64,000 nt of DNA from Psychrobacter sanguinis (GTDB lineage: Bacteria; Pseudomonadota; Gammaproteobacteria; Pseudomonadales; Moraxellaceae). Shown here in pieces: positions 14,480 through 58,137 of this stretch. The first letter of the stretch is position 1, and every line of letters begins with the position of its first letter. The position numbers were made by a program, and so were the translations under genes. The stretch is taken from NCBI RefSeq assembly GCF_020736705.1, contig NZ_CP085990.1:682001-746000 (forward strand). The letters are read 5' to 3'. A model generated the notes under the pieces. That model ran no database searches, was not told where the DNA came from, and saw only the letters and a program-made list of their open reading frames with translations.

Positions 14480-14630
14480 TTGACATACTCCCACCACCAA
14501 ACCTAACGGTTATGGTGGGGGAATCTTTGCGACCCATAACAACCTAAGTTGTTACCTTTCGCCATGCCACCTACGCTAATAGGTATAGGCATGGAGGAAC
14601 TCTTTACACAGTAGTAAGTCCTGCTACATC
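14480..14630 (-). ncRNA. Candidate omega-RNA, family 1, copy A
   Basis: The last codons of tnpB and the following 120 bases fold, on the minus strand, into CCATGCC..GGCATGG with an inner CCTA/TAGG, then AACAAC..GTTGTT, then a long CCCCCACCA..TGGTGGTGGG hairpin just before GTCAA. This is the usual TnpB omega-RNA layout. The guide would be the flank: TAGCAAAAACCTACTATTTC. The 5' limit is a guess. Confidence 0.55.
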
Positions 14631-15731
14631 AGCTAACGCCTGAGAGCGTATATTGCTTGCTGCATTGGTATCACGGTCATGGTGTGTTTGACAGCTAGGA
14701 CACGTCCAATGACGCACCGATAACGGCAGAGTGTTTAATTTGTAATGACAATGCGAACAAATTTTACTACTAGCAAAGAACCGACTCACTTTTAGAATGT
14801 TTTTACCATACCAATTCGCCTTGTAGGTAAGCAGGGTAATAAACTGCCCCCAACCCACGTCATTAATCGCTTTGGCAAGTTTTCGGTTCTTTACCATGTT
14901 TTTCACACCTAAATCTTCTATCGCATAGCTTGTCGCTTGGTTTTCACAGATAAGGCTATGCGTGATTTTGTGATGTAAGTCTAATCGAGCGTTGCGTACT
15001 TTTTCATGAATACGAGCAACAGCTAATTTTTGTTTTTGATAGTTCTTACTGGTCTTTTGTTTACGAGCAAAGATTTTTTGCTGTATAGCAAGTCGTTTAC
15101 TGGCTTTGGCTAAATGCTTTGGGTTATCAAATTTGCTACCATCTGATAGATTGAGTAAGTGACTAATACCTAAGTCAATGCCAACCGTTAATCTAGGTTC
15201 AATGGTCGTAGGCGTTGGCAATATATCAGCATTATCAACCAGTACGCTTGCATAGTATTTGCCTGTGGCGGTTTTACTAATAGTAACGGTTTTGATATTA
15301 CCAACAAATTCACGGCTAAATACGGTTTTGATGCCTTTTATTTTAGGTAGATTGATAATACCTTGCTCAAAGTTTACGGTGCAATGTTGAGGGCATTGAT
15401 AACTACGCTGTGGGATTTTTTTAGATTTGAACCGTGGAAATTTGGCATGACCTTTGAAGAAGTTAGTAAAAGCGGTATAGACATTTAGTAAGGCATTTAG
15501 TAGTGATTGGCTATTGACCTCGTTTAGCCATGCAAACTGAGCTTTCTTTTTCTTTTTTACTAAATGGCTTTGGATTTTGCTACGTGATAATGATTTGCCA
15601 AACATAGCATAGTAGCGTTTTTGCAATGCCAACGCCCAATTGAACACAAACCGACTACAGCCAAAATGCTTTTCGATTAGCACTCGCTGCTCACTGTTTG
15701 GGTAAATTCTGTATTTATAGGCTTTAAGCAT
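14604..15731 (-). CDS. tnpB: TnpB RNA-guided nuclease, family 1, copy A
   Basis: This 375-residue TnpB (OrfB of IS605) has the RuvC-like catalytic set Asp186 in GIDLGIS, Glu272 in AIEDLGVKN and Asp354 in HDRDTNAASN, with a zinc ribbon at Cys325, 328, 344 and 347 between the last two. The N-terminal OrfB_HTH region (MLKAYKYRIYPNSEQ) is complete. TnpB cuts DNA next to a short T-rich motif using an omega-RNA made from the 3' end of its own transcript. All motifs look intact. It differs from copies B and C at a few positions (for example KTS for KQS near 227 and LTTV at the C-terminus). Confidence 0.93.
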   Translation of the reverse strand: MLKAYKYRIYPNSEQRVLIEKHFGCSRFVFNWALALQKRYYAMFGKSLSRSKIQSHLVKKKKKAQFAWLNEVNSQSLLNALLNVYTAFTNFFKGHAKFPRFKSKKIPQRSYQCPQHCTVNFEQGIINLPKIKGIKTVFSREFVGNIKTVTISKTATGKYYASVLVDNADILPTPTTIEPRLTVGIDLGISHLLNLSDGSKFDNPKHLAKASKRLAIQQKIFARKQKTSKNYQKQKLAVARIHEKVRNARLDLHHKITHSLICENQATSYAIEDLGVKNMVKNRKLAKAINDVGWGQFITLLTYKANWYGKNILKVSRFFASSKICSHCHYKLNTLPLSVRHWTCPSCQTHHDRDTNAASNIRSQALADVAGLTTV

Positions 15732-15909
15732 GGTTTGTCAGTCAACTTGAATATAGGTATAACTTAGCATTATTTGCATTTAGCATCAATTATCAGCAAT
15801 AAACCTAAATCCTTAGAATAGGTCGCCCGTGCTTACATCTCCACCTAAATCAAAGATTATAGGTGGAGAATTACGCACGATAAGTTAAAAAGACCTGTTA
15901 TTTAGAAAT

Positions 15910-15939
15910 CAGCCTGCTGCTTTGCACAGGCTGTTTTTT
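15910..15939 (+). terminator. Rho-independent terminator, probably of the M48 gene
   Basis: CAGCCTG and CAGGCTG pair around a 10-base loop, followed by TTTTTT. The only plus-strand gene upstream is the M48 protease at 13663-14466; without the TnpB element the stop codon and this terminator would be about 40 bases apart. Confidence 0.75.
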
Positions 15940-16150
15940 ATTATGGATATTTTTTTATTATCGTTATTTAATGCTTTAAAATTACAGTTATTTAAGGTTT
16001 TAAAACCGACTAAAGAGCACAATATCTGTTGCAGATAGCCACTAGAGCAATCCTACTATTAACTGTTAATATAAAGGCTATCCATTTAAAGTAAATGTAT
16101 AAAACACATCTATAAAAATAGCCATATACAAAACCATCAGGAGACAGGAC

Positions 16151-16474
16151 GTGCAAACCCATAATGAAGTTCTAAAACGCGTCGAAACGCTTAATCCTAC
16201 CCACGTCGAGCTGATAAACGAATCAATGAATCATGCCGGCTACTTTGAAGGTAAAGAGAGCCACTTTAAATTAACCGTGGTCAGTCCAGATTTTGAAGGT
16301 AAAAGACGGGTAGCAAGACACCAGCTTATCTATAGCCTGATGGACAATTTGATGACCAGCCAAGGCGGTAGTATTCATGCCTTAGCCATCCATGCTTATA
16401 GCCCAGATGAATGGCAACAGCAAAATCAGACTGTGCCTGCCAGCCCCCTTTGTGCCGGTCAAAATAAAGCCTAA
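16151..16474 (+). CDS. bolA: BolA-family protein
   Basis: This 107-residue protein matches the compact BolA fold: HVELINESMNHAGYFEGKES, then FKLTVVSPDFEGKRRVARHQ (the conserved F.G.R...RH.. segment with the invariant His), and SIHALAIHAYSPDEW. BolA proteins pair with monothiol glutaredoxins in iron-sulfur trafficking and affect cell shape and envelope genes in Gammaproteobacteria. The start is a GTG with CAGGAG 8 bases upstream. It is followed 67 bases later by the SirB-like gene on the same strand. Confidence 0.92.
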   Translation: MQTHNEVLKRVETLNPTHVELINESMNHAGYFEGKESHFKLTVVSPDFEGKRRVARHQLIYSLMDNLMTSQGGSIHALAIHAYSPDEWQQQNQTVPASPLCAGQNKA

Positions 16475-16541
16475 CTGTTGAATAAAACCTAACTTTTGAC
16501 CTCACTTATTTAATTTGCTAGCCAACTGGCTCGAGGAAACT

Positions 16542-16901
16542 ATGAAACACTTACATATGTTAATGGCGGTAATTACCGTGGTGCTCTTTTTATGGCAGAG
16601 CTATTTAGTCATGACCAAAGGCCAACGTTTCGATAAAAAAGGCAAGATTGCCACTCATGTAGTTTATACCCTATTGATTATCTCAGGGGCATTAAATGTC
16701 ATGCCTCTATTACAAGCGGACGCTCCGCTTCAGTGGGTTGCTGCCAAAATTATATTACTCATAGCAGCAATAAGTGCTAGTATTAAAGCCTTTAGAGCGA
16801 CGGCGACACCCGCCCAAAGCAGAACCGGTATTTTTATCGCTTTCATTGCTTACGTGGCAATTTTTGTATTGGCCTTTGTTAAGCCAGGCAACTTTATGTA
16901 G
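16542..16901 (+). CDS. SirB-family inner-membrane protein
   Basis: This 119-residue protein has four hydrophobic segments and the SirB pattern (MKHLHMLMAVITVVLFLWQS near the start, a central HVVYTLLIISGALN and a GIFIAFIAYVAIFVLAF C-terminal helix). The function of SirB proteins is not settled. I use the ATG at 16542 with GAGGAA just upstream; the TTG at 16515 has no ribosome site. It probably shares a transcript with bolA. Confidence 0.85.
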   Translation: MKHLHMLMAVITVVLFLWQSYLVMTKGQRFDKKGKIATHVVYTLLIISGALNVMPLLQADAPLQWVAAKIILLIAAISASIKAFRATATPAQSRTGIFIAFIAYVAIFVLAFVKPGNFM

Positions 16902-17029
16902 CCTCAATTGAGGTCGCTTTGGCTAATGTTGCTGCGGTTGACCTTAAATCACCGTGGCATTCATACCAAACACTTTGGGTCTCAAGATATACTCCCTCGC
17001 TTAACTAACCATAAACTTAGGAATTTTTT

Positions 17030-17446
17030 ATGCCAAACTTCAGCGTTAAATCTTTGATGGCTTCTGCCGCAGTCGCTGGCAGTGTGCTTATGCTAAGTGG
17101 CTGCGCAACGACGGGTAATGTGTCGCCACAATATATTCCGCCTAGCAATTATCAAGGCTATGACTGTCCCTCTTTGTCTCAAGAATACAATCGCATTCAA
17201 AGCTATATCAATACTGAGAGCAAAAATTACTCAGGATTAACCACCACTGGCGTGGGTGTGGGTGTTTCTGCCGGACGCTGGGGTTTCTCACCCAATATTA
17301 ATATTGGGGTAGGCAAAAGTAATAATAATGCTGCACGCGATGCCAAACTTTCTCGTCTATTTGGCGAAAGAGATGCGGTGGTACAAGCGGCACGTATGAA
17401 GCAGTGTACCTTTGCCACAAAATTAAAAGTATATGGCGAATCTTAA
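17030..17446 (+). CDS. Small lipoprotein of unknown function
   Basis: This 138-residue protein starts with a signal peptide ending in the lipobox LMLSGC (Cys near residue 25) and so is a predicted lipoprotein. The mature part has a YDCPSLSQEYNRIQSYINTE segment and a glycine-rich middle (TTTGVGVGVSAGRWGF). Two cysteines in the mature part (CPSL and QCTF) could form a disulfide. I know no named family. It is followed by a TnpB element inserted 13 bases after its stop. Confidence 0.8.
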   Translation: MPNFSVKSLMASAAVAGSVLMLSGCATTGNVSPQYIPPSNYQGYDCPSLSQEYNRIQSYINTESKNYSGLTTTGVGVGVSAGRWGFSPNINIGVGKSNNNAARDAKLSRLFGERDAVVQAARMKQCTFATKLKVYGES

Positions 17447-17571
17447 TCATTATTTTATCACCGGTCGCCGTAAAACCACCCCCTTCAGGGGGTGGATATA
17501 AGGCGACATACACTGTCGTAAGAAGCAGTTAAAGGGTTGTAAGTTAAAATTAACCTGGCCATACTAAGCAT

Positions 17572-18678
17572 ATGAAAACACTCAAACTACGCATCAAAGA
17601 CAAACATGCAAACCAGCTAAACAAACTAGCTGGGAGTATTAACTATGCGTGGAACTATGTTAATGCGTTAAGCTTTGAGCATTTAAGACGCACAGGTAAG
17701 TACTTTTCAGCTTATGATTTAAGCCAATATACCAAAGGTAGCGGTGAGTATTTAGGATTACACAGTCAAACCTTACAAGCCATTAACGAGACTCATGCCA
17801 AATCTCGTAAACAATTTAAAAAAGCCAAACTTAACTGGCGTACCAATCGTGTGGATGCCAAACGTAAATCACTTGGGTGGATACCTTTTAAGAAATCTGC
17901 TATCAAGTATTTGCAAACAAGGCAGACAGGTAAGAAGGCACTTAAATCAACCATACAGCTATCCTTATCTAAAGGTCAAAAGCTCATCATCGATGTATTC
18001 GATAGCTACAACCTAAGCCTATATCAAATTAATACCTTAGAGATAGTACAAGACAATCGTAATCGTTGGTATGCGTGTATCACCGTTAAAGACTTTCCTA
18101 AGCAAGTAAGTGGTAAGGGCAGCGTTGGAATTGATTTGGGCTTAAAAGAGTCTGCTACTACCTCAATGGGTGATAAACTTACTATTAAGCAGACCCAAAA
18201 ATGGTCTAAAAAGCTTGCTATCGCCCAGCGTGCTAGCAATAAAAATCGTGTTAAAGCAATCCACGCAAAAATAAAAAATACAAGGTTAGACTTAATTCAT
18301 AAATTCACCACCAAGCTTGTTCAAGATAATGCTTTAATTGTGGTTGGTGATGTTAAATCACGCTCATTTACCAATAAAAAAAACAAGCTAGCTAAATCGA
18401 CATATGATGCAGGTTGGTTTGAACTTAAACGACAACTGGAATACAAATGCAAGTATGCAGGTTGTCAGTTTGAGATGGTAAATGAAAGTTACACTACCCA
18501 GACCTGCTCGTGCTGCCTTAAAATAAGTGACAGTAGTCCGAAAGGTAGAGCAGATTTGCGAATAAGAGGATGGAGGTGTGCTGAGTGTGGCACATGGCAT
18601 GATAGAGATATCAATGCCGCTAAGAACATCCTTGCGGTCGGGCTTGACCGTCTAGCGGTAGGAATCCCCTCGGTTTAG
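17572..18678 (+). CDS. tnpB: TnpB nuclease, family 2, copy 1, with an altered RuvC-II motif
   Basis: This 368-residue TnpB is complete, with Asp188 (GIDLGLKE), Asp346 (HDRDINAAKN) and a zinc ribbon at Cys312, 315, 336 and 339. Where TnpB normally has the RuvC-II Glu (family 1: IEDL) this protein has VVGDV, Gly259. A Glu at 305 (VNESYTTQ), 46 residues later, is the natural candidate to replace it, as reported for Fanzor and some TnpBs. It is not closely similar to family 1. No frameshift or stop is seen, so it may be active. Confidence 0.92.
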   Translation: MKTLKLRIKDKHANQLNKLAGSINYAWNYVNALSFEHLRRTGKYFSAYDLSQYTKGSGEYLGLHSQTLQAINETHAKSRKQFKKAKLNWRTNRVDAKRKSLGWIPFKKSAIKYLQTRQTGKKALKSTIQLSLSKGQKLIIDVFDSYNLSLYQINTLEIVQDNRNRWYACITVKDFPKQVSGKGSVGIDLGLKESATTSMGDKLTIKQTQKWSKKLAIAQRASNKNRVKAIHAKIKNTRLDLIHKFTTKLVQDNALIVVGDVKSRSFTNKKNKLAKSTYDAGWFELKRQLEYKCKYAGCQFEMVNESYTTQTCSCCLKISDSSPKGRADLRIRGWRCAECGTWHDRDINAAKNILAVGLDRLAVGIPSV

Positions 18679-18697
18679 CGAGAGGGGAGGAAGTCAA
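18560..18697 (+). ncRNA. Candidate omega-RNA, family 2, copy 1
   Basis: The 3' end of tnpB forms CGGTC GGGCTT GACCG and then CCCCTC..GAGAGGGG over the stop codon, ending AGTCAA. The bases next to it, AATCTCTTATAACTTCGGGT, would be the guide. The 5' limit is not known. This copy has two extra bases in the right arm of the last hairpin relative to copies 2 and 3. Confidence 0.5.
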
Positions 18698-18776
18698 AAT
18701 CTCTTATAACTTCGGGTTAACCTTTAAAGCATAGCTTAGCGACAAGGACCGGCTAAAGAATAAGGCAATAAACATC

Positions 18777-20129
18777 ATGAGTCAGCCCACAACACAGACA
18801 GCTTTACCTAAAAATAGTAACTCTGCTTACCAGAAAGCACCCCATTTTGAACGCTCTGACTATCAACGGGTGGTCATTACCGGTATGGGTGCCATTACGC
18901 CCTTAGGATTGGATGTGGAAACCACTTGGCAACGCTTAATTCAGGGCGAAAGTGGTATTAAGCCCATTACTCATTTTGATGCCTCAACTTACCGCGCTCA
19001 GTTCGCTGGTACGATTGAAGAGTTTGATGCCAGTCACTATATGGCGGCCAAAGAATCCCGTCGCTATGATACCTTCGTTCATTATGGAGTCGCTGCTGCG
19101 AGCATGGCACTTAAACAAGCGGGCTTTATTAATGAAGTTTGTGCCGACCCTACGCCGGTTAATAATGTCGATGCTGACCGTTTTGGGGTAATTATCGGTG
19201 CGGGTATTGGGGGTCTACAGACTTTAGAACACAACCGAGATGCCCTTGCCAATCATGGGGTTCGTAAGGTGTCTCCATTTAGCTTACCCGGTTCTATTAT
19301 TAATATGGCGGCCGGTATGGTCGCCATCAAGCACAATCTACGTGGTCCTAACTTAGCCACTGCCACCGCCTGTACTTCAGCAGCTCATGCCATTGGTTTG
19401 GCTGCTCGCTTAATCGCTTATGGTGATTGTGATGTGATGTTGGCCGGAGGTAGCGAAAAAGGCTCGAGTCCACTAGGTATGGCCGGATTTGCCGCTATGG
19501 GCGCGCTATCGACTCGAAATGAAGAGCCAACTCGTGCCAGCCGTCCGTTTGATAAAGACCGTGATGGCTTCGTATTGGGCGATGGGGCTGGAGTGTTGGT
19601 ACTAGAAAGCCTGACCCATGCCAAAGCCCGTGGTGCCACCATCTTAGCAGAACTGGCGGGATTTGGTATGAGTGATGATGCCCATCATATCACTGCCCCA
19701 CCATCTGATGGTAACGGCGCTGCTAGAGCCATGACCCTAGCCATTAAAGATGCCGGTATTGACCCTTGTGACATTGGCTATATCAATGCTCATGGTACCA
19801 GCACCCCTGCCGGTGATGTCGCTGAGTCGCAAGCCATCGAAGGCATCTTTGAGGCTTGTAAGGATCGCTTACTGGTCAGCTCTACCAAGTCAATGACCGG
19901 TCACTTATTGGGCGCCGCAGGGGCAATAGAAGCCATCTTTAGTATTCAAGCCTTGCTCGAGCAGACAGTGCCACCGACCATCAACTTAGACAATGTCGAT
20001 GAAAAATGCCGTTTAGATTATGTGGCCAATAAAGCACGCACGGTGACGGAGCTGAATTATTCAATGTCAAACAGCTTTGGCTTCGGCGGTACCAATGGCT
20101 CGCTAATCTTCTCGCGCTGGTCTAAATAA
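18777..20129 (+). CDS. fabF: 3-oxoacyl-[acyl-carrier-protein] synthase II (KAS II)
   Basis: This enzyme condenses malonyl-ACP with acyl-ACP in fatty-acid elongation and controls the temperature response of unsaturated fatty acids. The thiolase-fold catalytic triad is present: Cys in TATACTSAAHA, His in NAHGTSTPAGD and His in KSMTGHLLGAAG. The GFGGTNGSL segment closes the protein. At 450 residues it is about 35 longer than typical FabF because of an N-terminal tail ahead of RVVITGMGAITPLG. It stands apart from the other fab genes, which is common for a second condensing enzyme; FabB-type activity cannot be excluded. Confidence 0.93.
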   Translation: MSQPTTQTALPKNSNSAYQKAPHFERSDYQRVVITGMGAITPLGLDVETTWQRLIQGESGIKPITHFDASTYRAQFAGTIEEFDASHYMAAKESRRYDTFVHYGVAAASMALKQAGFINEVCADPTPVNNVDADRFGVIIGAGIGGLQTLEHNRDALANHGVRKVSPFSLPGSIINMAAGMVAIKHNLRGPNLATATACTSAAHAIGLAARLIAYGDCDVMLAGGSEKGSSPLGMAGFAAMGALSTRNEEPTRASRPFDKDRDGFVLGDGAGVLVLESLTHAKARGATILAELAGFGMSDDAHHITAPPSDGNGAARAMTLAIKDAGIDPCDIGYINAHGTSTPAGDVAESQAIEGIFEACKDRLLVSSTKSMTGHLLGAAGAIEAIFSIQALLEQTVPPTINLDNVDEKCRLDYVANKARTVTELNYSMSNSFGFGGTNGSLIFSRWSK

Positions 20130-20200
20130 GCGCCGCTTCATACTGCGTATAATTATATTAATATCCGCCCCTTATCAAACTCTGATGGAGACAAATTAAC

Positions 20201-20938
20201 ATGGCACAAGTTGCATTCTCACACCAATTTTCTCATCGCTGGATTAATGCCCCGCAAGCTGTTAAAGAGGCTCTAATTCAAGAGTTTGAAGACATTATGC
20301 AGTTGCTCGAAGAAGACACTGATTTAGAGACTTTTGAATTTACTGTGCCCGACTTACATGCTCATATCGATGCCATTAATGCCGAAGTGGCCGCCGAAAA
20401 AGAAGTGGCTCGCCTTGAAGCGGAAAGACTAGAAGCTGAACGTATCGAGGCAGAAAGACTTGAGCTTGAAAAAATGGAAGCCGAACGCTTACTGCTGGAA
20501 AAACAAGCCGCAGAGCAACAACGCATCTTTGACGCCGAAGAAGCGAATCATTTGGCTAACCTTACTGAACAAGAGCTATCTCAGCCATATCCGCAGGGTG
20601 TAGAAAATTTAGAAGATACTGAAGTAATTGGCGTTGAGGAAGACAATATTGAGGCAACACTTAACGATCAAGTGACTCTTACTACCGAGAGTCAGGATCC
20701 TGAAGTTTCTAGAGAGCAACCGCTAGAAAACCCAATCACCGAGCTAGACGCTGTTATAAACGCCCCTGCCCCTTTTACCTTTGACAGCAGTCGTTCAAAC
20801 GCTGAACTGGATGAGGACTTTGTTAAAGAGCTTGAAAGCCGAATTGATGACTATTTAAGTGAGCAGTTGGCCAATATGTCTGAAGATTTGAAATCTTGGC
20901 TGCGTGAACAAGTGGCCAACCGCTTAAATAACAAATAG
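20201..20938 (+). CDS. Hypothetical acidic coiled-coil protein
   Basis: This 245-residue soluble protein has a helical start (SHRWINAPQAVKEALIQEFE), a charged coiled coil around residues 65-110 built on five- to six-residue units (EAERLEAERIEAERLELEK), an acidic low-complexity middle and a helical end (DDYLSEQLANMSEDLKSWLR). It has no signal or membrane segment. I do not recognise a family. It follows fabF by 71 bases on the same strand and may be co-transcribed. A structural or scaffold role is only a guess from composition. Confidence 0.75.
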   Translation: MAQVAFSHQFSHRWINAPQAVKEALIQEFEDIMQLLEEDTDLETFEFTVPDLHAHIDAINAEVAAEKEVARLEAERLEAERIEAERLELEKMEAERLLLEKQAAEQQRIFDAEEANHLANLTEQELSQPYPQGVENLEDTEVIGVEEDNIEATLNDQVTLTTESQDPEVSREQPLENPITELDAVINAPAPFTFDSSRSNAELDEDFVKELESRIDDYLSEQLANMSEDLKSWLREQVANRLNNK

Positions 20939-23017: not shown

Positions 23018-23045
23018 AAAAAAGCTGGCTTAAAGCCAGCTTTTG
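23018..23045 (-). terminator. Rho-independent terminator, probably of the permease gene
   Basis: On the minus strand AAAAGCTGGCT..AGCCAGCTTTTTT forms a strong stem and a T tract. The next gene upstream on that strand is the permease ending at 24477; TnpB copy B has been inserted between the two. Confidence 0.85.
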
Positions 23046-23063
23046 TATCAATAGTTGCTACTA

Positions 23064-23215
23064 TTGACATACTCCCACCACCAAACCTAACGGTTATGGT
23101 GGGGGAATCTTTGCGACCCATAACAACCTAAGTTGTTACCTTTCGCCATGCCACCTACGCTAATAGGTATAGGTATGGAGGAACTCTTTACACAGTAGCA
23201 CGTCCTGCTACATCA
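23064..23215 (-). ncRNA. Candidate omega-RNA, family 1, copy B
   Basis: Same hairpin series as copy A, except that the first stem is CCATACC against GGCATGG, one mismatch. The flank that would serve as guide is TAGTAGCAACTATTGATACA. The 5' limit is a guess. Confidence 0.55.
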
Positions 23216-24315
23216 GCTAACGCCTGAGAGCGTATATTGCTTGCTGCATTGGTATCACGGTCATGGTGTGTTTGACAGCTAGGACACGTCCAATTTCTGA
23301 CTGACAACGGCAGAGTATCTAATTTGTGATGACAATGCGAACAAATTTTACTACTAGCAAAGAACCGATTTACCTTTAGGATACTCTTACCATACCAATT
23401 CGCCTTGTAAGTAAGCAGGGTAACAAACTGACCCCAGCCAACATCATTAATCGCTTTGGCAAGTTTTCGGTTCTTTACCATGTTTTTCACACCTAAATCT
23501 TCTATCGCATAGCTTGTCGCTTGGTTTTCACAGATAAGGCTATGCGTGATTTTGTGATGTAAGTCTAATCGAGCGTTGCGTACTTTTTCATGAATACGAG
23601 CAACAGCTAATTTTTGTTTTTGATAGTTTTTACTTTGTTTTTGTTTACGAGCAAAGATTTTTTGCTGTATAGCAAGTCGTTTACTGGCTTTGGCTAAATG
23701 CTTTGGGTTATTAAATTTGCTACCATCTGATAGATTGAGTAAGTGACTAATACCTAAGTCAATGCCAACCGTTAATCTAGGTTCAATGGTCGTAGGCGTT
23801 GGCAATATATCAGCATTATCAACCAGTACGCTTGCATAGTATTTGCCTGTGGCGGTTTTACTAATAGTAACGGTTTTGATATTACCAACAAATTCACGGC
23901 TAAATACGGTTTTGATGCCTTTTATTTTAGGTAGATTGATAATACCTTGCTCAAAGTTTACGGTGCAATGTTGAGGGCATTGATAACTACGCTGTGGGAT
24001 TTTTTTAGATTTGAACCGTGGAAATTTGGCATGACCTTTGAAGAAGTTAGTAAAAGCGGTATAGACATTTAGTAAGGCATTTAGTAGTGATTGGCTATTG
24101 ACCTCGTTTAGCCATGCAAACTGAGCTTTCTTTTTCTTTTTTACTAAATGGCTTTGGATTTTGCTACGTGATAATGATTTGCCAAACATAGCATAGTAGC
24201 GTTTTTGCAATGCCAACGCCCAATTGAACACAAACCGACTACAGCCAAAATGCTTTTCGATTAGCACTCGCTGCTCACTGTTTGGGTAAATTCTGTATTT
24301 ATAGGCTTTAAGCAT
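23188..24315 (-). CDS. tnpB: TnpB RNA-guided nuclease, family 1, copy B
   Basis: This 375-residue TnpB is nearly identical to copy A and has all catalytic residues (Asp in GIDLGIS, Glu in AIEDLGVKN, Asp in HDRDTNAASN) and the four zinc cysteines. It differs at scattered positions, for example FNNP for FDNP, SILKVNRFF for NILKVSRFF and a VAGRATV end. The reading frame is intact and lies in the same direction as the permease gene upstream, so read-through could drive it. Confidence 0.93.
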   Translation of the reverse strand: MLKAYKYRIYPNSEQRVLIEKHFGCSRFVFNWALALQKRYYAMFGKSLSRSKIQSHLVKKKKKAQFAWLNEVNSQSLLNALLNVYTAFTNFFKGHAKFPRFKSKKIPQRSYQCPQHCTVNFEQGIINLPKIKGIKTVFSREFVGNIKTVTISKTATGKYYASVLVDNADILPTPTTIEPRLTVGIDLGISHLLNLSDGSKFNNPKHLAKASKRLAIQQKIFARKQKQSKNYQKQKLAVARIHEKVRNARLDLHHKITHSLICENQATSYAIEDLGVKNMVKNRKLAKAINDVGWGQFVTLLTYKANWYGKSILKVNRFFASSKICSHCHHKLDTLPLSVRNWTCPSCQTHHDRDTNAASNIRSQALADVAGRATV

Positions 24316-24476
24316 GGTTTGTCAGTCAACTTGAATATAGGTATAACTTAGCATTATTTGCATTTAGCATCAATTATCAGCAATAAACCTAAATACTTAG
24401 AATAGGTCGCCCGTGCTTACATCTCCACCTAAATCAAAGATTATAGGTGGAGAATTACGCACGATAAGTTAAAGGA

Positions 24477-30288: not shown

Positions 30289-30340
30289 TGGTTATTTATT
30301 CATTTATTGATTGGATCAAGTTTGATTGTGAGTCATACCA

Positions 30341-30492
30341 TTGACATACTCCCACCACCAAACCTAACGGTTATGGTGGGGGAATCTTTGCGACCCATAA
30401 CAACCTAAGTTGTTACCTTTCGCCATGCCACCTACGCTAATAGGTATAGGCATGGAGGAACTCTTTACACAGTAGCACGTCCTGCTACATCA
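30341..30492 (-). ncRNA. Candidate omega-RNA, family 1, copy C
   Basis: The hairpin series is the same as in copy A, with an intact CCATGCC/GGCATGG first stem. The flanking bases that would act as guide are TGGTATGACTCACAATCAAA. The 5' limit is a guess. Confidence 0.55.
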
Positions 30493-31592
30493 GCTAACGC
30501 CTGAGAGCGTATATTGCTTGCTGCATTGGTATCACGGTCATGCTGTGTTTGACAGCTAGGGCACGTCCAATTTCTGACTGACAACGGCAGAGTATCTAAT
30601 TTGTGATGACAATGCGAACAAATTTTACTACTGGCAAAGAACCGACTCACTTTTAGAATGTTTTTACCATACCAATTAGCCTTGTAGGTAAGCAGGGTAA
30701 TAAACTGCCCCCAACCGACATCATTAATGGCTTTGGCAAGTTTACGGTTCTTTACCATGTTTTTCACACCTAAATCTTCTATCGCATAGCTTGTCGCTTG
30801 GTTTTCACAGATAAGGCTATGCGTGATTTTGTGATGTAAGTCTAATCGAGCGTTGCGTACTTTTTCATGAATACGAGCAACAGCTAATTTTTGTTTTTGA
30901 TAGTTTTTACTTTGTTTTTGTTTACGAGCAAAGATTTTTTGCTGTATAGCAAGTCGTTTACCGGCTTTGGCTAAATGCTTTGGGTTATCAAATTTGCTAC
31001 CATCTGATAGATTGAGTAAGTGACTAATACCTAAGTCAATGCCAACCGTTAATCTAGGTTCAATGGTCGTAGGCGTTGGCAATATATCAGCTTTATCAAC
31101 CAGTACGCTTGCATAGTATTTGCCTGTGGCGGTTTTACTAATAGTAACGGTTTTGATATTACCAACAAATTCACGGCTAAATACGGTTTTGATGCCTTTT
31201 ATTTTAGGTAGATTGATAATACCTTGCTCAAAGTTTACGGTGCAATGTTGAGGGCATTGATAACTACGCTGTGGGATTTTTTTAGATTTGAACCGTGGAA
31301 ACTTGGCATGACCTTTGAAGAAGTTAGTAAAAGCGGTATAGACATTTAGTAAGGCATTTAGTAGTGATTGGCTATTGACCTCGTTTAGCCATGCAAACTG
31401 AGCTTTCTTTTTCTTTTTTACTAAATGGCTTTGGATTTTGCTACGTGATAATGATTTGCCAAACATAGCATAGTAGCGTTTTTGCAATGCCAACGCCCAA
31501 TTGAACACAAACCGACTACAGCCAAAATGCTTTTCGATTAGCACTCGCTGCTCACTGTTTGGGTAAATTCTGTATTTATAGGCTTTAAGCAT
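30465..31592 (-). CDS. tnpB: TnpB RNA-guided nuclease, family 1, copy C
   Basis: This is an intact 375-residue TnpB with the complete RuvC triad and zinc ribbon. It differs from copy A at a handful of residues, such as VDKADILP, KAGKRLA and CQTQHDRD. The low divergence among three copies points to recent spread within this genome. Confidence 0.93.
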   Translation of the reverse strand: MLKAYKYRIYPNSEQRVLIEKHFGCSRFVFNWALALQKRYYAMFGKSLSRSKIQSHLVKKKKKAQFAWLNEVNSQSLLNALLNVYTAFTNFFKGHAKFPRFKSKKIPQRSYQCPQHCTVNFEQGIINLPKIKGIKTVFSREFVGNIKTVTISKTATGKYYASVLVDKADILPTPTTIEPRLTVGIDLGISHLLNLSDGSKFDNPKHLAKAGKRLAIQQKIFARKQKQSKNYQKQKLAVARIHEKVRNARLDLHHKITHSLICENQATSYAIEDLGVKNMVKNRKLAKAINDVGWGQFITLLTYKANWYGKNILKVSRFFASSKICSHCHHKLDTLPLSVRNWTCPSCQTQHDRDTNAASNIRSQALADVAGRATV

Positions 31593-31747
31593 GGTTTGTC
31601 AGTCAACTTGAATATAGGTATAACTTAGCATTATTTGCATTTAGCATCAATTATCAGCAATAAACCTAAATACTTAGAATAGGTCGCCCGTGCTTACATC
31701 TCCACCTAAATCAAAGATTATAGGTGGAGAATTACGCACGATAAGTT

Positions 31748-49659: not shown

Positions 49660-49740
49660 ACTTATTAGTGCTTTTAAATTAATACTGTCGAATGTATTTT
49701 ATTTTATGAGCGTCTTTAGATTTAATAGTTTTAGGCTTAA

Positions 49741-50949: not shown

Positions 50950-50994
50950 AGGGTATCAACTGTACTTAAAACTATGTGTTAGTAAATCGGATGA

Positions 50995-51130
50995 TTGACT
51001 TCCTCCCCTCGCTAAACCGAGGGGATTCCTACCGCTAGACGGTCAAGCCCGACCGCAAGGATGTTCTTAGCAGCATTGATATCTCTATCATGCCATGTGC
51101 CACACTCAGCACATCTCCATCCTCTTATTC
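50995..51130 (-). ncRNA. Candidate omega-RNA, family 2, copy 2
   Basis: The 3' end folds as CGGTC..GACCG and CCCCTCG GTTTAG CGAGGGG (perfect 7-bp stem), then GAAGTCAA. The guide would be TCATCCGATTTACTAACACA, taken from the sequence 46-26 bases upstream of the ftsW start. The 5' limit is unknown. Confidence 0.5.
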
Positions 51131-52118
51131 CAAGATCTGCTCTACCTTTCGGACTACTGTCACTTATTTTAAGGCAGTACGAGCAGGTCTGGGTAGTGTA
51201 ACTCTCATTTATCATCTCAAACTGACAACCTGCATACTTGCATTTATATTCCAGTTGTCGTTTAAGTTCAAACCATCCTGCATCATATGTCGATTTAGCT
51301 AGCTTGTTTTTTTTATTGGTAAATGAGCGTGATTTAACATCACCGACCACAATTAAGGCATTATCCTTAACTAATTGGGTGGTGAACTTATGAATTAAGT
51401 CTAATCTTGTGTTTTTGATTTTGGAATGGATTGCTTTAACACGTTTTTTATTGTTAGCACGTTGAGCGACAGCAAGCTTTTTAGCCCATTTTTGAGTCTG
51501 CTTAATAGTGAGTTTATCACCCATTGATGTGGTGGCAGCTTCTTTTAAGCCCAAATCAATTCCAACGCTGCCCTTACCACTTACTTGCTTAGGAAAGTCT
51601 TTAAAGGTAATACACGCATACCAACGATTACGACTATCTTGTACTATCTCAAGCGTGTTAATTTGATACAAAGACAGGTTGTAGCTATCAAATACGTCTA
51701 TGACGAGTTCCTGACCTTTAGATAGCGATAGCTGTATGGTTGATTTAAGTGCTTTTTTACCCCTTTGTCTTGTGCTTAGGTGTTTTATGGCTGATTTCTT
51801 AAAAGGTATCCACCCAAGTGATTTACGTTTGGCATCAGGACGATTGGTACGCCAGTTAAGTTTGGCTTTTTTAAATTGTTTACGTGATTTAGATTGAGTC
51901 TCATTGATAGCCTGTAAGGTCTGACTGTGTAATCCTAAATACTCACCGCTACCTTTGGTATAATGGTTTAAATCATAAGCACTAAAAAACTTACCAGTAC
52001 GTTTTAGATGCTCAAAACTTAACGCATTAACATAGTTCCACACGAAGTTCACTGAACCGCTTAGCTGATTCAGCTCTTTTATGTGTTTGTCTTTGATGCG
52101 TAGTTTGAGTGTTTTCAT
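51012..52118 (-). CDS. tnpB: TnpB nuclease, family 2, copy 2, with an altered RuvC-II motif
   Basis: This is an intact 368-residue TnpB. It has GIDLGLKE and HDRDINAAKN Asp residues, Gly in place of the RuvC-II Glu (VVGDVKSR) and a candidate replacement Glu in INESYTTQ. The zinc-ribbon Cys residues are in CSYCLKI and CAECG. It differs from copy 1 at about two dozen positions but is nearly identical to copy 3. Confidence 0.92.
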   Translation of the reverse strand: MKTLKLRIKDKHIKELNQLSGSVNFVWNYVNALSFEHLKRTGKFFSAYDLNHYTKGSGEYLGLHSQTLQAINETQSKSRKQFKKAKLNWRTNRPDAKRKSLGWIPFKKSAIKHLSTRQRGKKALKSTIQLSLSKGQELVIDVFDSYNLSLYQINTLEIVQDSRNRWYACITFKDFPKQVSGKGSVGIDLGLKEAATTSMGDKLTIKQTQKWAKKLAVAQRANNKKRVKAIHSKIKNTRLDLIHKFTTQLVKDNALIVVGDVKSRSFTNKKNKLAKSTYDAGWFELKRQLEYKCKYAGCQFEMINESYTTQTCSYCLKISDSSPKGRADLGIRGWRCAECGTWHDRDINAAKNILAVGLDRLAVGIPSV

Positions 52119-52286
52119 ATGTTTAGTATGGCGAGGTTAATTTTAACTTACAACCCTTTAACTGCTTCTTACGACAGTGTATGTCGCCTTATATCCACAC
52201 CCTGAAGTGGGTGGTTTTACGGCGACTGGTGATAAAAAACAGACTATTCGATGAATAAAAATGACCAACGAAAACAGTCGGTCAAA

Positions 52287-53855
52287 TTAAGATTTCAAAG
52301 CGTCTACCAACTGACAGAAATGCTCGCCACGCTCATTATAGCTACTGTACTGATCTAAGCTGGCACAAGCAGGTGACAGCAATACTGCGCCCACTTGAGA
52401 CAAACTGCTACCTAGTAGAGACTGTGCTTTGTCCATGGCTTGATCTAGCGTCTGATAATGATACATATCTACTTCATCACTTAGATTAGCCTGCTGTAAA
52501 TGCTCAGAGATTAGCTTAGCATCTTCACCAATCAATAATACTTGACTGACATACTTGTTGACGAGAGGCACAAGTTCACCAAAGTTTTGCCCCTTACCTT
52601 GTCCGCCTAATATCAGCATTAACTTGGTTTTGCCATGACTATTACTGCTATATACTGAGCCTAAGCCTAAGATAGCTGCTTGGGTTGAGCCTACATTGGT
52701 GCCTTTGGAATCATTAAAATAATCTATTCCCGCCACATTATCCACAAATTGACAGCGGTGTGGCAGTCCAGAAAAGTCTTGTAACGTTTGCAGCATGCTC
52801 TCAAGAGGAATGCCCGCCAGTTCACCCAAAGCTAGGGCAGCTAATGCATTGACTAAGTTGTGCTTACCTTTGACTTTTAATTGATCTGCTGCCAGTAACT
52901 TTTGTGTGCCTTTTGCCAGATAAAGGCTGCCATCCCCTTCAGTGATTATCCCATATTCCCCCAAGTCCGGTGCATTAGAGCCGATACTGATGCGGGGGGT
53001 GTTGTCGGCGATTAACGGCCGTGATAGAGCATCATCACGATTGACCACGACCGACTGGGCCCCTTGGAAAATACGGTGTTTGGCTTGATGATAGCCAAGC
53101 ATATCACCATGACGGTCTAAATGATCAGGCGACATATTGAGCACAGTGGCAACTTTGGCACCTAGATTGGTCACTGTCTCCAATTGGAAACTGGATAATT
53201 CTAAAACCGCCAACGTCATGTTATCGCCCAACTGCTCGTCATCTAGCAAGCTTAAAGCGGGCACCCCGATGTTACCGCCAACGCCGACACTGATGCCGGC
53301 ATCTTTGGCCATTTGGCCCACTAAGGTAGTGACTGTGCTCTTTGCATTCGAGCCTGTTATTGCCACAATAGGGGCGGTACAAGCGTCTTTGAACAACTGA
53401 ATATCACTGACAATGGCAATACCTGCTTGTTTGGCTTGAGCAACTGCTGGCGTATTGAGCGCCACTCCTGGGCTAATAATAATACGCTGTGCTTGTAATA
53501 AAAGCTCAGCATCGATACCGCCAAACACTCTAATTTCAATATTTTTATCTAACTGCTCTGCCAATTTCGGTGCCGCATTACCATCTGTGACTGCCACACT
53601 ATAGCCACGTTTTGCCAGATAATTGGCCGTCGCTAATCCAGACTGTCCCAGTCCAATAACCACTTGCAGTCCACTGCCCTTTTGAATCAGATCACTGCGG
53701 CTTTTCTCAGTTAGAATATTAGGCTGATAATGGCCGACACTTGAGTCGTCTTGGCTATTAGAGTTGGCAATTGGTTGAATATTGTCTTTTGATTTATAAG
53801 AGGTGGTATCTACCGAAGGGGTAATTTGACGACTAACGATTGGGTCAGTACTCAT
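52287..53855 (-). CDS. murD: UDP-N-acetylmuramoyl-L-alanine--D-glutamate ligase
   Basis: MurD adds D-glutamate to the peptidoglycan precursor. It has the N-terminal UDP-binding fold (VVIGLGQSGLATANYLAKRG), the P-loop AITGSNAKSTVTTLVG (GxxGKT/S type, here SNAKST), NMSPDHLDRHGDMLGY and a C-terminal LLSPACASLDQYSSYNERG. At 522 residues it carries about 65 extra polar N-terminal residues, so either the real start is internal or the protein has a tail. Confidence 0.94.
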   Translation of the reverse strand: MSTDPIVSRQITPSVDTTSYKSKDNIQPIANSNSQDDSSVGHYQPNILTEKSRSDLIQKGSGLQVVIGLGQSGLATANYLAKRGYSVAVTDGNAAPKLAEQLDKNIEIRVFGGIDAELLLQAQRIIISPGVALNTPAVAQAKQAGIAIVSDIQLFKDACTAPIVAITGSNAKSTVTTLVGQMAKDAGISVGVGGNIGVPALSLLDDEQLGDNMTLAVLELSSFQLETVTNLGAKVATVLNMSPDHLDRHGDMLGYHQAKHRIFQGAQSVVVNRDDALSRPLIADNTPRISIGSNAPDLGEYGIITEGDGSLYLAKGTQKLLAADQLKVKGKHNLVNALAALALGELAGIPLESMLQTLQDFSGLPHRCQFVDNVAGIDYFNDSKGTNVGSTQAAILGLGSVYSSNSHGKTKLMLILGGQGKGQNFGELVPLVNKYVSQVLLIGEDAKLISEHLQQANLSDEVDMYHYQTLDQAMDKAQSLLGSSLSQVGAVLLSPACASLDQYSSYNERGEHFCQLVDALKS

Positions 53856-54358
53856 GGTCTGTCCTTGTTTCTATATTGTGCTATGATGCACCCATTTTTG
53901 TAGAAATATGTGGTCAATATTAGGTTGTCCACTGTATAAAATGCCTTAATTGCATTTTGCCCTTATCTCTACCGTGTAAATTAATGTTAAAATAGCGCAC
54001 TAAGTCATCGCTGGGAATGTAGGCTGCTTATTCTACCATGAGCCCAGCATCAATGAACTGAATTTACTTACGTTTATGTTGCTATATCACTATTTTTTAA
54101 TAGGCGTTAAACCCCTTAATTCAGAAGCGTTATCCCATATTGATATTTGTTAATAAATATTATTCCACTATATAGCACCACTTTTGTGATGTGAATGTTT
54201 TATGACCTTATTTTTGCTGATTGACATACGCTTTATTGATCGTATGACTAAGATAGCCTACCTCAAATTTTGGTAACGTTATTTTAGAGCTTTTGGCGTC
54301 TCATTTAACATGGCTATCGTCATAAAATAAAACCCAACAAATAATCGACCCAAAACTT
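53856..54358. other. Divergent intergenic region
   Basis: This 503-base AT-rich gap lies between murD (-) and the SulP gene (+) and must hold both promoters. I see no RNA gene, hairpin of note or small protein gene. Confidence 0.45.
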
Positions 54359-55861
54359 ATGATAGTGCCTTCATTAAATACGATACAAGACGAATGGTTT
54401 TCAAATGTACGCGGTGACGTGCTTTCAGGACTGGTAGTTGCTCTAGCTCTTATCCCAGAAGCGATTGCCTTTTCAATTATTGCCGGTGTTGACCCCAAAG
54501 TAGGTTTATATGCCTCATTTTGTATTGCCGTTGTCATCAGCTTTGTAGGAGGTCGCCCTGGAATGATATCGGCGGCCACAGGCGCTATGGCATTGGTCAT
54601 GGTCACTTTGGTTGCAGACCATGGTTTACAATACCTATTGGCAGCCACGCTGCTTTGTGGGGTGATTCAGTTCGTCATGGGCGTGTTTAAACTTGGCAAC
54701 CTGATGCGCTTTGTGTCACGTTCTGTGGTCATTGGCTTTGTAAATGCTTTGGCCATTTTGATTTTTATGGCTCAGCTTCCTGAACTAAACCCTGCCACTG
54801 AGAGAGTCACCATTTCAGTTTATATCATGACAGCCGCTGGCCTTGCCATCATTTATGGCTTTCCACATTTCCCTAAAATTGGCAAAATCATTCCCTCTCC
54901 GCTTATTTGCATTGTGGGTTTGACCGCGGTTGCTTTATATATGGGCATCGACATTCGCAATGTGGGCGACATGGGTGAGTTACCCGATACTCTACCTATG
55001 TTCTTATTGCCTAATATCCCGTTAACCCTAGACACCTTATTGATTATCGCGCCTTATTCACTGGCACTAGCGGTAGTTGGCCTGCTTGAGTCTATGATGA
55101 CCGCTACTATTGTCGATGATTTGACCGATACTCCTAGTGATAAAAACCGTGAGTGTCGCGGCCAGGGTGTGGCCAATGTGGTGTCAGGCTTCTTCGGTGG
55201 TATGGCAGGCTGTGCCATGATTGGTCAATCAGTGATCAATGTCAAATCAGGGGGCCGTACACGCCTTTCGACGCTTATCGCTGGGGTGGTACTGCTCATA
55301 ATGGTAGTATTCTTAAGTGATTGGGTCAGCCAGATTCCGATGGCCGCCCTAGTTGCTGTTATGATTATGGTGTCTATCGGGACTTTTAACTGGGAATCGA
55401 TACGTGAGTTTAAGACCCATCCCATGTCGTTCAACGTGGTTATGTTGGCTACTGTCATCACCACGGTGTTCACTCATAATCTAGCGTATGGCGTATTGGT
55501 CGGTGTGTTGCTGTCATCCTTATTCTTTGCCAATAAGATTGGTCAGTTCTTAAGCGTCGTTAGTGAGCTTGATGATGACAATAATACCCGTTACTACTAT
55601 GTTCAAGGTCAGGTTTTTTTCAGCTCTACCACTCAGTTTTTAAATAGTTTTGATACCAAAGAAGCGCTAGATAAAGTAGTCATTGACGTTAGCCAAGCTC
55701 ACTTTTGGGATGTCACTGCCGTCGATACTTTAGATAAATTAGTTATCCGTTTTCAACGCGAAGGGAGTGATGTTAAAGTAGTAGGTCTAAACAGTGCCAG
55801 TCGCACTATTATTGATAAATTCTCGATCCACGACCGTCATGATATCGGTTTGATTGATTAG
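54359..55861 (+). CDS. SulP-family anion transporter with STAS domain
   Basis: This 500-residue transporter has the SulP opening ([50 protein letters not shown]), about 12-14 helices, the [20 protein letters not shown] segment and a C-terminal STAS domain (about 405-500; [20 protein letters not shown]). Relatives move sulfate, bicarbonate or dicarboxylates; the BicA-like length is compatible with bicarbonate but unproven. A UspA-type gene follows, a pairing often seen with SulP genes. Confidence 0.9.
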
Positions 55862-55891
55862 TTAATAGCTTAACTTAGGCCAAATGCTTTT

Positions 55892-55924
55892 AATCCCGCT
55901 CTGGCATTGCCGAGTGGGATTTTT
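55892..55924 (+). terminator. Terminator after the SulP gene
   Basis: AATCCCGCTC and GAGTGGGATT pair (one G-T wobble) around a 10-base loop, followed by TTTTAATTT. Confidence 0.82.
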
Positions 55925-55988
55925 AATTTACGTTATATGTGTTTTTTGCGATATGTTATAAATGTATGTTCCGATTTGAGTGATTCAT

Positions 55989-56849
55989 ATGAGTAATTTA
56001 AGACCTGATAGTGTCATTGCCTGCCTTGACTGCCCCAACCATTTACAAGCTGTGCTTGATGCTAGCCTATGGGCTGCTAAAAACTTGCAGACACCCGTTG
56101 GCCTATTACATGCTGCGCCTACTATCCAACATAAAGAAGCCATGGATTATTCAGGCTGCTTAGTAGCTGATGATGGCAGTCACTTATTGAACCAGTTGAC
56201 TTTAGAAGAAAAAGACAGCAATGGTAAACTGCGTGACCAAGGCCGTTTATTACTGAAACAAGCACACAACTACTGCGAACAAAATCAGGGACGCTACAAA
56301 CATCAGATTTATTATTTGCATCGCCATGCTTCTATTGCTGAAAGCCTAGATTATGTCGATGAATCGGCACAATTGGTGGTTATTGGCCATCAAGTGACCT
56401 GCAAAGACACTTTGTCTCATCTAATTCGTGCCAGCCGCTGCCCTGCCCTAGTAACCCATGATACGTTTAAAGCGCCAAAAACCGCTCTCTTTGGCTTTGA
56501 TAATCGGCCTACGTGTCATGCTTTGCTAGACTGGCTATGTAGCACCTCACTGGTCAGAAACTTGAATCTGCATGTGGTGATGGTTGGAGAACAAACCGAA
56601 CGCAATAAAGAGGCGCTTCGTGAGGCTTATGCGCGCTTGACGCAGTCAGGTATTAGTTGCAAAAAGGCACTAATTGAAGGCCGTGATGTGACTGCAGCCT
56701 TAATGTTTTATCAGCAACACCACTACCTAGAAATGCTGATTACTGGGGCATTTGGAGAATCTCGCTTACATGAATTATTGCATGGCAGCAATACCCGTAA
56801 GCTGCTAAAGGCGAGCCGCACACCTTATTTACTTTATCCCAAAATATAG
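55989..56849 (+). CDS. Tandem universal stress protein (two UspA domains)
   Basis: This 286-residue protein has two Usp folds. The first (1-150) starts SVIACLDCPNHLQAVLDASL, the second (about 160-286) starts TALFGFDNRPTCHALLDWLC and ends LITGAFGESRLHELLHGSNT, resembling the ATP-binding loop G-x-x-G-x9-G. It may regulate or sense stress together with the SulP transporter upstream, from which it is separated by a terminator. A GTG 9 bases upstream is an alternative start. Confidence 0.87.
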   Translation: MSNLRPDSVIACLDCPNHLQAVLDASLWAAKNLQTPVGLLHAAPTIQHKEAMDYSGCLVADDGSHLLNQLTLEEKDSNGKLRDQGRLLLKQAHNYCEQNQGRYKHQIYYLHRHASIAESLDYVDESAQLVVIGHQVTCKDTLSHLIRASRCPALVTHDTFKAPKTALFGFDNRPTCHALLDWLCSTSLVRNLNLHVVMVGEQTERNKEALREAYARLTQSGISCKKALIEGRDVTAALMFYQQHHYLEMLITGAFGESRLHELLHGSNTRKLLKASRTPYLLYPKI

Positions 56850-56898
56850 TAGCTTCCAAAATACAGCTAGTCAGTAGAGTCCTATTAGAAGTAACACA

Positions 56899-57035
56899 TT
56901 GACCTCCTCCCCTCGCTAAACCGAGGGGATTCCTACAGCTAGACGGTCAAGCCCGACCGCAAGGATGTTCTTAGCGGCATTGATATCTCTATCATGCCAT
57001 GTGCCACACTCAGCACACCTCCATCCTCTTATTCC
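56899..57035 (-). ncRNA. Candidate omega-RNA, family 2, copy 3
   Basis: The same terminal hairpins as copy 2 are kept, ending GAGGTCAA instead of GAAGTCAA. The guide would be TGTGTTACTTCTAATAGGAC. The RNA could be active in trans even though this copy's protein is truncated. Confidence 0.5.
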
Positions 57036-58022
57036 GAGATCTGCTCTACCTTTCGGACTACTATCACTTATTTTAAGGCAGCACGAGCAGGTCTAGGTAG
57101 TGTAACTTTCATTTACTATCTCAAGCTGACAACCTGCATACTTGCATTTATATTCCAGTTGTCGTTTAAGTTCAAACCATCCTGCATCATATGTCGATTT
57201 AGCTAGGTTGGTTTTTTTATTGGTAAATGAGCGTGATTTAACATCACCGACCACAATTAAGGCATTATCCTTAACTAATTGGGTGGTGAACTTATGAATT
57301 AAGTCTAATCTTGTGTTTTTGATTTTGGAATGGATTGCTTTAACACGTTTTTTATTGTTAGCACGTTGAGCGACAGCAAGCTTTTTAGCCCATTTTTGAG
57401 TCTGCTTAATAGTGAGTTTATCACCCATTGATGTGGTGGCAGCTTCTTTTAAGCCCAAATCAATTCCAACGCTGCCCTTACCACTTACTTGCTTAGGAAA
57501 GTCTTTAAAGGTAATACACGCATACCAACGATTACGACTATCTTGTACTATCTCAAGCGTGTTAATTTGATACAAAGACAGGTTGTAGCTATCAAATACG
57601 TCTATGACGAGTTCCTGACCTTTAGATAGCGATAGCTGTATGGTTGATTTAAGTGCTTTTTTACCCCTTTGTCTTGTGCTTAGGTGTTTTATGGCTGATT
57701 TCTTAAAAGGTATCCACCCAAGTGATTTACGTTTGGCATCAGGACGATTGGTACGCCAGTTAAGTTTGGCTTTTTTAAATTGTTTACGTGATTTAGATTG
57801 AGTCTCATTGATAGCCTGTAAGGTCTGACTGTGTAATCCTAAATACTCACCGCTACCTTTGGTATAATGGTTTAAATCATAAGCACTAAAAAACTTACCA
57901 GTACGTTTTAGATGCTCAAAACTTAACGCATTAACATAGTTCCACACGAAGTTCACTGAACCGCTTAGCTGATTCAGCTCTTTTATGTGTTTGTCTTTGA
58001 TGCGTAGTTTGAGTGTTTTCAT
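56916..58022 (-). pseudogene. tnpB: tnpB of family 2, copy 3, truncated by one nonsense mutation
   Basis: Codon 310 (CAG, Gln, in the other copies) is TAG here, so the protein stops after ESYTT at 309 residues (57093-58022). It keeps Asp188 and the candidate Glu305 but loses the zinc ribbon and the last catalytic Asp346. Past the stop the frame stays open to the normal end at 56916 (RLAVGIPSV), so this is one point change in an otherwise intact copy. It is nearly identical to copy 2 up to that point. The 3' omega-RNA region is untouched and could still act with TnpB made elsewhere. Confidence 0.92.
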
Positions 58023-58137
58023 ATGTTTAGTATGGCGAGGTTAATTTTAACTTACAACCCTTTAACTGCTTCTTACGACAGTGTATGTCGCCTTATATCC
58101 ACACCCTGAAGTGGGTGGTTTTACGGCGACTGGTGAT

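Follow-up and report, generated by a model that had tools for sequence, protein, structure and literature searches.

Two families of tnpB-only elements in Psychrobacter sanguinis: probable derivatives of IS605-type elements mobilised in trans

Introduction

Elements of the IS1341 group, within the IS200/IS605 family of insertion sequences (IS), carry a single tnpB gene between a left and a right end and lack a transposase. The part of PMC9956272 that treats them gives lengths of 1252-1393 bp for 10 of 18 IS1341 elements, sets aside as decayed IS605 or IS607 any element in which Y1 transposase or serine-recombinase sequence exceeds 20 bp, suggests that IS1341 may evolve independently and calls its autonomy unclear. 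In IS605c-type elements, as presented in the same part, tnpA and tnpB run in opposite directions. Here we describe two families of such tnpB-only elements, F1 and F2, from Psychrobacter sanguinis, three copies of each lying within a 64,000-nucleotide stretch of its genome (contig NZ_CP085990.1, positions 682,001 to 746,000; hereafter the window). We consider it highly probable that both are tnpB-only derivatives mobilised in trans, F1 having arisen by deletion of tnpA and F2 being older, and that their TnpB proteins, predicted to be active, are under selection.

TldR proteins, which are TnpB relatives without a transposase, are nuclease-dead, and the TnpB of ISDra2 uses the motif TTGAT, whereas F1 follows TTTAA. 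Meers et al., in 2023, reportedly dealt with TnpB and donor-site cutting. According to a passage in PMC11870625, TnpB records its own insertion site in its guide and cuts copies of that site in which the element is missing, which on plasmids produces a gene-drive effect. In our literature search we found, with narrow phrasing, no account of tnpA loss in such elements, and no paper on TnpB in Psychrobacter; neither result proves absence from print.

Results

Within-family alignment confirmed that the window holds six TnpB loci of two families, as a sequence-only reading had proposed, at the positions given in Table 1. The three F1 copies are 1405 bp each and are immediately preceded by TTTAA; the F2 copies measure 1239, 1237 and 1237 bp (F2a, F2b and F2c) and are immediately preceded by TTTAT. 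All six end at the right in GTCAA, beyond which the sequences diverge, so that the left motifs, which resemble a transposon-adjacent motif, the common right end and the locus-specific flank were found as that reading had them. Five tnpB frames are intact (375 amino acids in three F1 copies, 368 in two F2 copies), again as proposed, and that of F2c is stopped by TAG after 309 amino acids. All six proteins matched the Pfam domains OrfB_IS605 and TNB, the TNB score of F2c being marginally below the cut-off, and the three TnpB proteins that we compared with NCBIfam guided_TnpB all matched it.

Both families have the marks of the IS1341 group of IS200/IS605, namely an OrfB-type tnpB with a zinc ribbon, and a fixed left motif and fixed right end without target duplication. 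Subterminal hairpins occur at both ends, those at the right recognised by folding and those at the left by eye. With a left flank of tnpB of about 110-155 bp and a right flank no longer than 124 bp, neither family has a serine-recombinase gene in the element, as IS607 would. By sequence, all six belong to the tnpB-only, IS1341-type branch of the IS200/IS605 family, a known kind of element with, in this case, an unusually clear family history. By eye, F1c and F2c appear to be inserted, at their left flanks, in a T-run after terminator-like hairpins, as TTTAA and TTTAT would favour.

Searching 96 genomes, our own included, with 73 bases of the F1 left end, we recovered it from our own genome (nine copies) and from two congeners, G005 and G056. 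In these two congeners, 9 of 11 distinct F1 left ends adjoin Y1 tnpA sequence and the other two stop at a contig end 23 bases on; in our own genome tnpA adjoins none of the nine. Where the congener loci extend far enough, an F1-type tnpB then follows in the opposite direction to tnpA, and the complete element of G056 is 1785 bp long, compared with 1405 bp for F1. Local alignment with an element of Psychrobacter piechaudii showed 66 of the first 67 bases of F1 to be identical, motif included, and local alignment with a tnpA-bearing element showed the promoter-side sequence resuming beyond the gap.

In named genomes we found 70 related loci, of which we examined the 24 close ones, the other 46 being more distant. 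Their hosts are Psychrobacter pasteurii, P. piechaudii, Moraxella atlantae, M. caprae, M. catarrhalis, M. macacae, Dichelobacter nodosus and a Moraxellaceae metagenome assembly, and the P. pasteurii and P. piechaudii loci overlap in part with those of G005 and G056. In 14 loci the sequence covers the beginning of tnpB and extends over 300 bases further left, and all 14 contain tnpA sequence. Among the remaining ten, eight end with the contig at or just before tnpB, and two (L183 and L184) have a partial tnpB without tnpA. An uninterrupted tnpA over nearly the full length is present in two of the 14, L160 and L163; the L163 gene is a Y1_Tnp by Pfam, and its neighbouring tnpB is frameshifted.

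A trace of tnpA remains in our own F1 copies. All nine retain 14-15 residues of frame matching the start of tnpA (about 86% match, E 0.002-0.01). The junction sequence is common to all nine, with a short insertion there in L008, and a single deletion most likely preceded the spread of F1 because of this shared junction. These alignments strongly support the derivation of F1 from an IS605-type element by deletion of tnpA, with both ends and tnpB retained. F1 resembles the IS605c type of PMC9956272 in its ends, gene order and tnpB, and differs from it in the deletion of tnpA from all nine of our copies.

The ancestry of F2 is shown less directly. With a query of 113 bases from its left end, and at most nine places scored per genome, we obtained matches in 22 of the 96 genomes; the first-look candidates numbered 69 in G005, 78 in G056 and 36 in G038, figures that are not confirmed copies. 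Fourteen fetched loci from 12 congeners have both ends and an F2-like tnpB (about 70-91% identical, broken in L094) without tnpA. An F2-like left end adjoins a Y1 tnpA at L051 and L102 of G020, the tnpA of L102 being partial, and at L096 of G002, where an F2-like tnpB lies behind tnpA in two pieces, 72% and 61% identical. Ends in common with Y1-transposase elements are strongly supported for F1, and for F2 consist of the left end alone (about 45 bases). From these comparisons, F2 probably descends from an old loss of tnpA and has spread over the genus. At L082:1505-1833 (G020), both F2-like ends are present with about 330 bp between them and no tnpB; this may be a small non-autonomous relative.

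In the whole source genome (3.40 Mb, four contigs), 24 TNB-domain matches correspond to 23 tnpB loci, one frameshifted gene being matched twice: nine F1, 12 F2, one F3 (L001) and one F4 (L009). Ten F2 copies are chromosomal and two lie on a 22.9-kb contig that is very likely a plasmid, as it carries two Rep3 initiators and a MobA/MobL relaxase. These two copies occupy positions 4159-5265 and 11318-12310 of that contig (C4, L216); the second is frameshifted and has alanine in place of the first RuvC aspartate (GIALG). The tnpB frame is intact in 9 of 9 F1 copies and 8 of 12 F2 copies; L022 (F2c) has its TAG, L023 is frameshifted, and L019 and L021 are truncated at the 5' end. The F2 left end was recognised at 9 of the 12 loci. 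L214 (C1:1623226) is a 5' piece of F2 and L215 (C1:1638130) a 3' piece; they lie some 15 kb from each other, are oppositely oriented and are perhaps one split copy, and by eye another IS transposase adjoins the 3' piece.

No match to Y1_Tnp (PF01797) was found in the whole genome, window included, by a search that was positive in 5 of 14 control genomes. The sequence-only reading had noted the lack of tnpA in the window and had called for a genome-wide search for a tnpA with matching ends; such genes are present in relatives. F1 and F2 accordingly have no Y1 tnpA of their own beyond the short stretch from its start in F1. One qualification is an IS607-like pair near 915 kb (F4, L217:2517-4198), belonging to neither F1 nor F2, in which a TnpB whose glutamate motif is the canonical one lies behind a serine recombinase. 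As the sole TnpB-linked recombinase seen in the genome, where other recombinases were not searched for, this enzyme might be proposed as the mover of F1 and F2. We give this very little credence, as the ends of F1 match those of Y1-bearing relatives, the left end of F2 resembles one, and the strand bias described below fits a single-strand mechanism.

Matches to PF07282, of any TnpB family and with fragments included, were counted in 54 of the 60 genomes of the genus in our set, our own among them. Seven genomes have at least 15: G056 (78), G005 (68), G002 (27), our own, G000 (24), G038 (20), G022 (16) and G028 (15), with 4, 8, 14, 0, 0, 6 and 0 Y1 matches, respectively. The three tnpB-rich genomes without Y1 (our own, G038 and G028) are assembled in four, two and two contigs, and G056 and G005 in about 300 and 230. 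Helper genes may have been lost from these three genomes, or may lie on plasmids outside these assemblies.

We compared the joined flanks of the six window sites with 57 genomes and checked the joint in the fetched loci and stretches. Alignments spanning the joint were obtained for F1a (one genome), F1b (15), F2a (two) and F2b (two), and no joint-spanning match was found for F1c or F2c in the fetched loci. In G023, the joined flanks of both F1a and F2b are continuous at the joint, with small differences. The sequence-only reading had named many intact empty sites, in related strains that carry the same TnpB, as evidence that would refute it. They would not do so, because a guide for a given site should exist only in a cell with the element there, and a strain in which that insertion never occurred would have the TnpB but lack the guide.

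Elements of the Y1 type insert on the lagging-strand template. We placed the replichores by dnaA (1.01 Mb) and by one perfect match, at 2.64 Mb, to a dif consensus. The strand that carries tnpB is the lagging-strand template at 8 of 9 F1 loci, 8 of 10 chromosomal F2 loci and 17 of 21 chromosomal loci overall. The corresponding counts in congeners, which cover all TnpB families and include tnpA-bearing loci, are 14 of 20 in G038, 11 of 16 in G022 and 3 of 3 in G004, and, among the matches listed, 8 of 13 in G028 (15 exist) and 16 of 22 in G002 (27 exist). Pooled over six genomes, 69 of 95 listed loci have this orientation (p = 1.2e-5 against 0.5 and 0.007 against 0.6). The insertion preference of IS200/IS605 is seen here with moderate statistics.

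The tnpB loci are also unevenly distributed. The region C1:490000-745000, which includes the window, holds 11 of the 21 chromosomal loci, from three families. Six loci in 64 kb gave p = 0.0009, and eight in 85 kb occurred in 0 of 20000 uniform simulations, both sizes having been chosen post hoc. No comparable cluster was seen in four congeners, two of them with incomplete lists. Local hopping was dropped as a cause of the cluster, since similarity did not vary significantly with distance (F1, p = 0.32; F2, p = 0.13).

The active sites argue for functional nucleases. F1 TnpB matches ISDra2 TnpB (PDB 8bf8, 8ex9 and 8exa) over residues 3-367 of 375 (E 8e-74) and keeps the canonical aspartate-glutamate-aspartate (D-E-D) triad of RuvC in GIDLG, IEDLG and HDRD. 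F2 has GIDLG, VGDV at the canonical glutamate position, a glutamate (E305) that precedes the CxxC of the zinc finger by six residues, and the final aspartate. We dropped the idea that VGDV marks a dead site, as F2 has an alternative glutamate like that described, in the relevant part of PMC10711439, for a D-Phi-G clade with an alternative RuvC-II glutamate, to which F2 is alike in GIDLG and E305. That part is centred on IS607 TnpBs and Fanzors, whereas the left end of F2 resembles Y1-bearing elements. Among the best 120 of 5788 matches to F2, 112 are 355 residues or longer; of the 112, 104 fit the published alternative-glutamate pattern when it is slightly relaxed and 106 have GID-Phi-G. Of five listed among those that do not fit, one has lysine for the glutamate and four have a glutamate with different downstream spacing. 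A structure prediction for F2 from 32 sequences had a mean predicted local distance difference test (pLDDT) score of 39.8 and was not used. The triad is complete in the five intact window TnpBs, with the alternative glutamate in F2, and F2c is truncated; from these residues, both F1 and F2 TnpBs are predicted to be active nucleases. The ratio of nonsynonymous to synonymous differences between copies (pN/pS) is 0.16 in each family (nine frames and 36 pairs each, the F2 frames including one plasmid copy and F2c).

These data bear on two further explanations. One is plain decay, in which tnpA was lost by chance and tnpB, with no retained function, has not yet decayed. Broken copies exist (F2c with its TAG, the frameshifted plasmid copy and the truncated L019 and L021), as do decaying tnpA genes in relatives, some with a broken tnpB too. 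Against this, all nine of our F1 tnpB genes are intact with a pN/pS of 0.16 despite their common tnpA deletion, and the 14 loci with an F2-like tnpB and both ends in 12 congeners indicate that the tnpA-less form has spread among species. We regard decay of this kind as unlikely.

The other, which we think distinctly less likely still, is that the elements are immobile residents whose TnpB the host has co-opted as an RNA-guided regulator, in the manner of TldR, or as an addiction system. The lack of any Y1 match in the genome and the purifying selection on tnpB would suit it, and TldR regulators are the subject of the relevant part of PMC13418256. However, F1 and F2 occupy nine and 12 different sites, their ends are exact to the element and relatives have empty sites, all of which speaks of spread, and the guides differ. 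Catalytic residues are complete in F1 and F2, which are multicopy, whereas TldR proteins have lost theirs; the earlier suggestion of regulator conversion or nuclease loss did not hold, as F1 keeps D-E-D, and F2 a D, an alternative E and a D.

The right ends may encode the guide-bearing RNA. From 17 F1 and 28 F2 right ends collected, we aligned 5 and 10, respectively. The F1 right end forms several hairpins, in which 3 of 39 pairs show double changes, and the F2 right end has double changes at 6 of 23; certain pairs are broken in some sequences, and the F2 region overlaps coding sequence. Covariation thus offers weak to moderate support for a structured RNA at these ends, short of proof of a guide RNA. 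At the gathering score, Rfam matched two tRNAs in the window and nothing else. The six predicted guides all differ from one another, as do the flanks from which they would be read, in agreement with the sequence-only reading.

Table 1. Positions of the elements and of their predicted RNA features within the window
Feature	Coordinates	Strand	Remarks
F1a element	14480-15884	-	TTTAA at left flank, GTCAA right end; tnpB 14604-15731
F1b element	23064-24468	-	tnpB 23188-24315
F1c element	30341-31745	-	tnpB 30465-31592
F2a element	17459-18697	+	TTTAT, GTCAA; tnpB 17572-18678
F2b element	50995-52231	-	tnpB 51012-52118
F2c element	56899-58135	-	tnpB frame 57093-58022, ended early by TAG
Putative omega-RNA scaffold, F1a	14480-14603	-	3' of tnpB; fold with a few compensatory changes; RNA predicted
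Putative omega-RNA scaffold, F1b	23064-23187	-	same basis as F1a
Putative omega-RNA scaffold, F1c	30341-30464	-	same basis as F1a
Putative omega-RNA 3' part, F2a	~18619-18697		same basis as F2b
Putative omega-RNA 3' part, F2b	50995-51071	-	overlaps tnpB 3' end; fold with a few compensatory changes; RNA predicted
Putative omega-RNA 3' part, F2c	~56899-56975		same basis as F2b
Predicted 20-nt guide, F1a	14460-14479	-	position expected from TnpB biology
Predicted guide, F1b	23044-23063		position expected from TnpB biology
Predicted guide, F1c	30321-30340		position expected from TnpB biology
Predicted guide, F2a	18698-18717	+	position expected from TnpB biology
Predicted guide, F2b	50975-50994		position expected from TnpB biology
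Predicted guide, F2c	56879-56898		position expected from TnpB biology

Discussion

Trans-mobilisation of tnpB-only derivatives whose TnpB is under selection is the explanation that we favour because of the empty sites in relatives, the lagging-template orientation and the pN/pS of 0.16. On the strongly supported reading of the comparisons, a deletion of about 380 bp removed nearly all of a divergent Y1 tnpA and gave rise to F1, which then reached nine copies in the source genome. F1 and F2 would have moved in single-stranded form, mobilised in trans by the Y1 TnpA of a helper since lost from the genome or borne on a plasmid. TnpB, with an omega-RNA reading into the 3' flank, would cut a vacated site and so lead to restoration of the copy. 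The sequence-only reading had left the choice between a set mobilised in trans and a resident RNA-guided system; the ends shared with tnpA-bearing relatives, the empty orthologous sites and the orientation bias favour the former. Its proposal that TnpB guides keep the copies in place is plausible from published work on TnpB, and the two plasmid copies of F2 would fit the published gene-drive effect of TnpB on plasmids.

Several observations weigh on the other side. The genome now has no Y1 transposase, and we infer the mover from relatives, in which the F1-type tnpA is itself mostly broken or shortened. The tnpA remnant in F1 is short; its frame runs from stop to stop with the first ATG at residue 9, so that perhaps 6-7 residues are coding. 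The tnpA-bearing L096 shares about 45 bases of the F2 left end, and its tnpB is 72% identical in the main piece. The F1b empty sites align poorly between the genes, and in the single F1a site the motif is altered by a substitution and a gap of one base. The strand bias may in part reflect the general tendency of genes to be co-oriented with replication, and the bias of F2 alone (8 of 10) is not significant (p = 0.11). The pN/pS values may pool differences that came from donors or from recombination with complete elements, and the three F1 copies of the window differ from one another in clusters of changes. Transcript, cutting and transposition are, for both families, predictions.

A further idea, which we offer tentatively and hold to be doubtful, is that TnpB has been selected for itself after the transposase was lost. 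The tnpB-only derivatives of IS605 would then outlive and outnumber their parents and persist without Y1, maintained and spread not by transposition but by cutting of the empty allele, perhaps with homing between chromosomes or plasmids. It is suggested by the richness of the Y1-free genomes, with 23 tnpB loci in our own and 20 and 15 TNB matches in G038 and G028.

The history of F1 makes the origin and movement of tnpB-only elements testable with a candidate helper transposase. PMC9956272, in its part on IS1341, suggests that these elements could be independent; F1, in contrast, is a traceable tnpA deletion that still multiplied, and the case bears against that suggestion. With F1 and F2 resident together, a canonical and an alternative TnpB active site can be compared in one host, and the three tnpB-rich genomes without Y1 matches and the regional tnpB cluster are of value as well. 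Together, the tnpA-bearing relative, the deletion derivative, the short remnant and the empty sites would capture, in one bacterial group, the emergence of a tnpB-only element from an IS605-type one.

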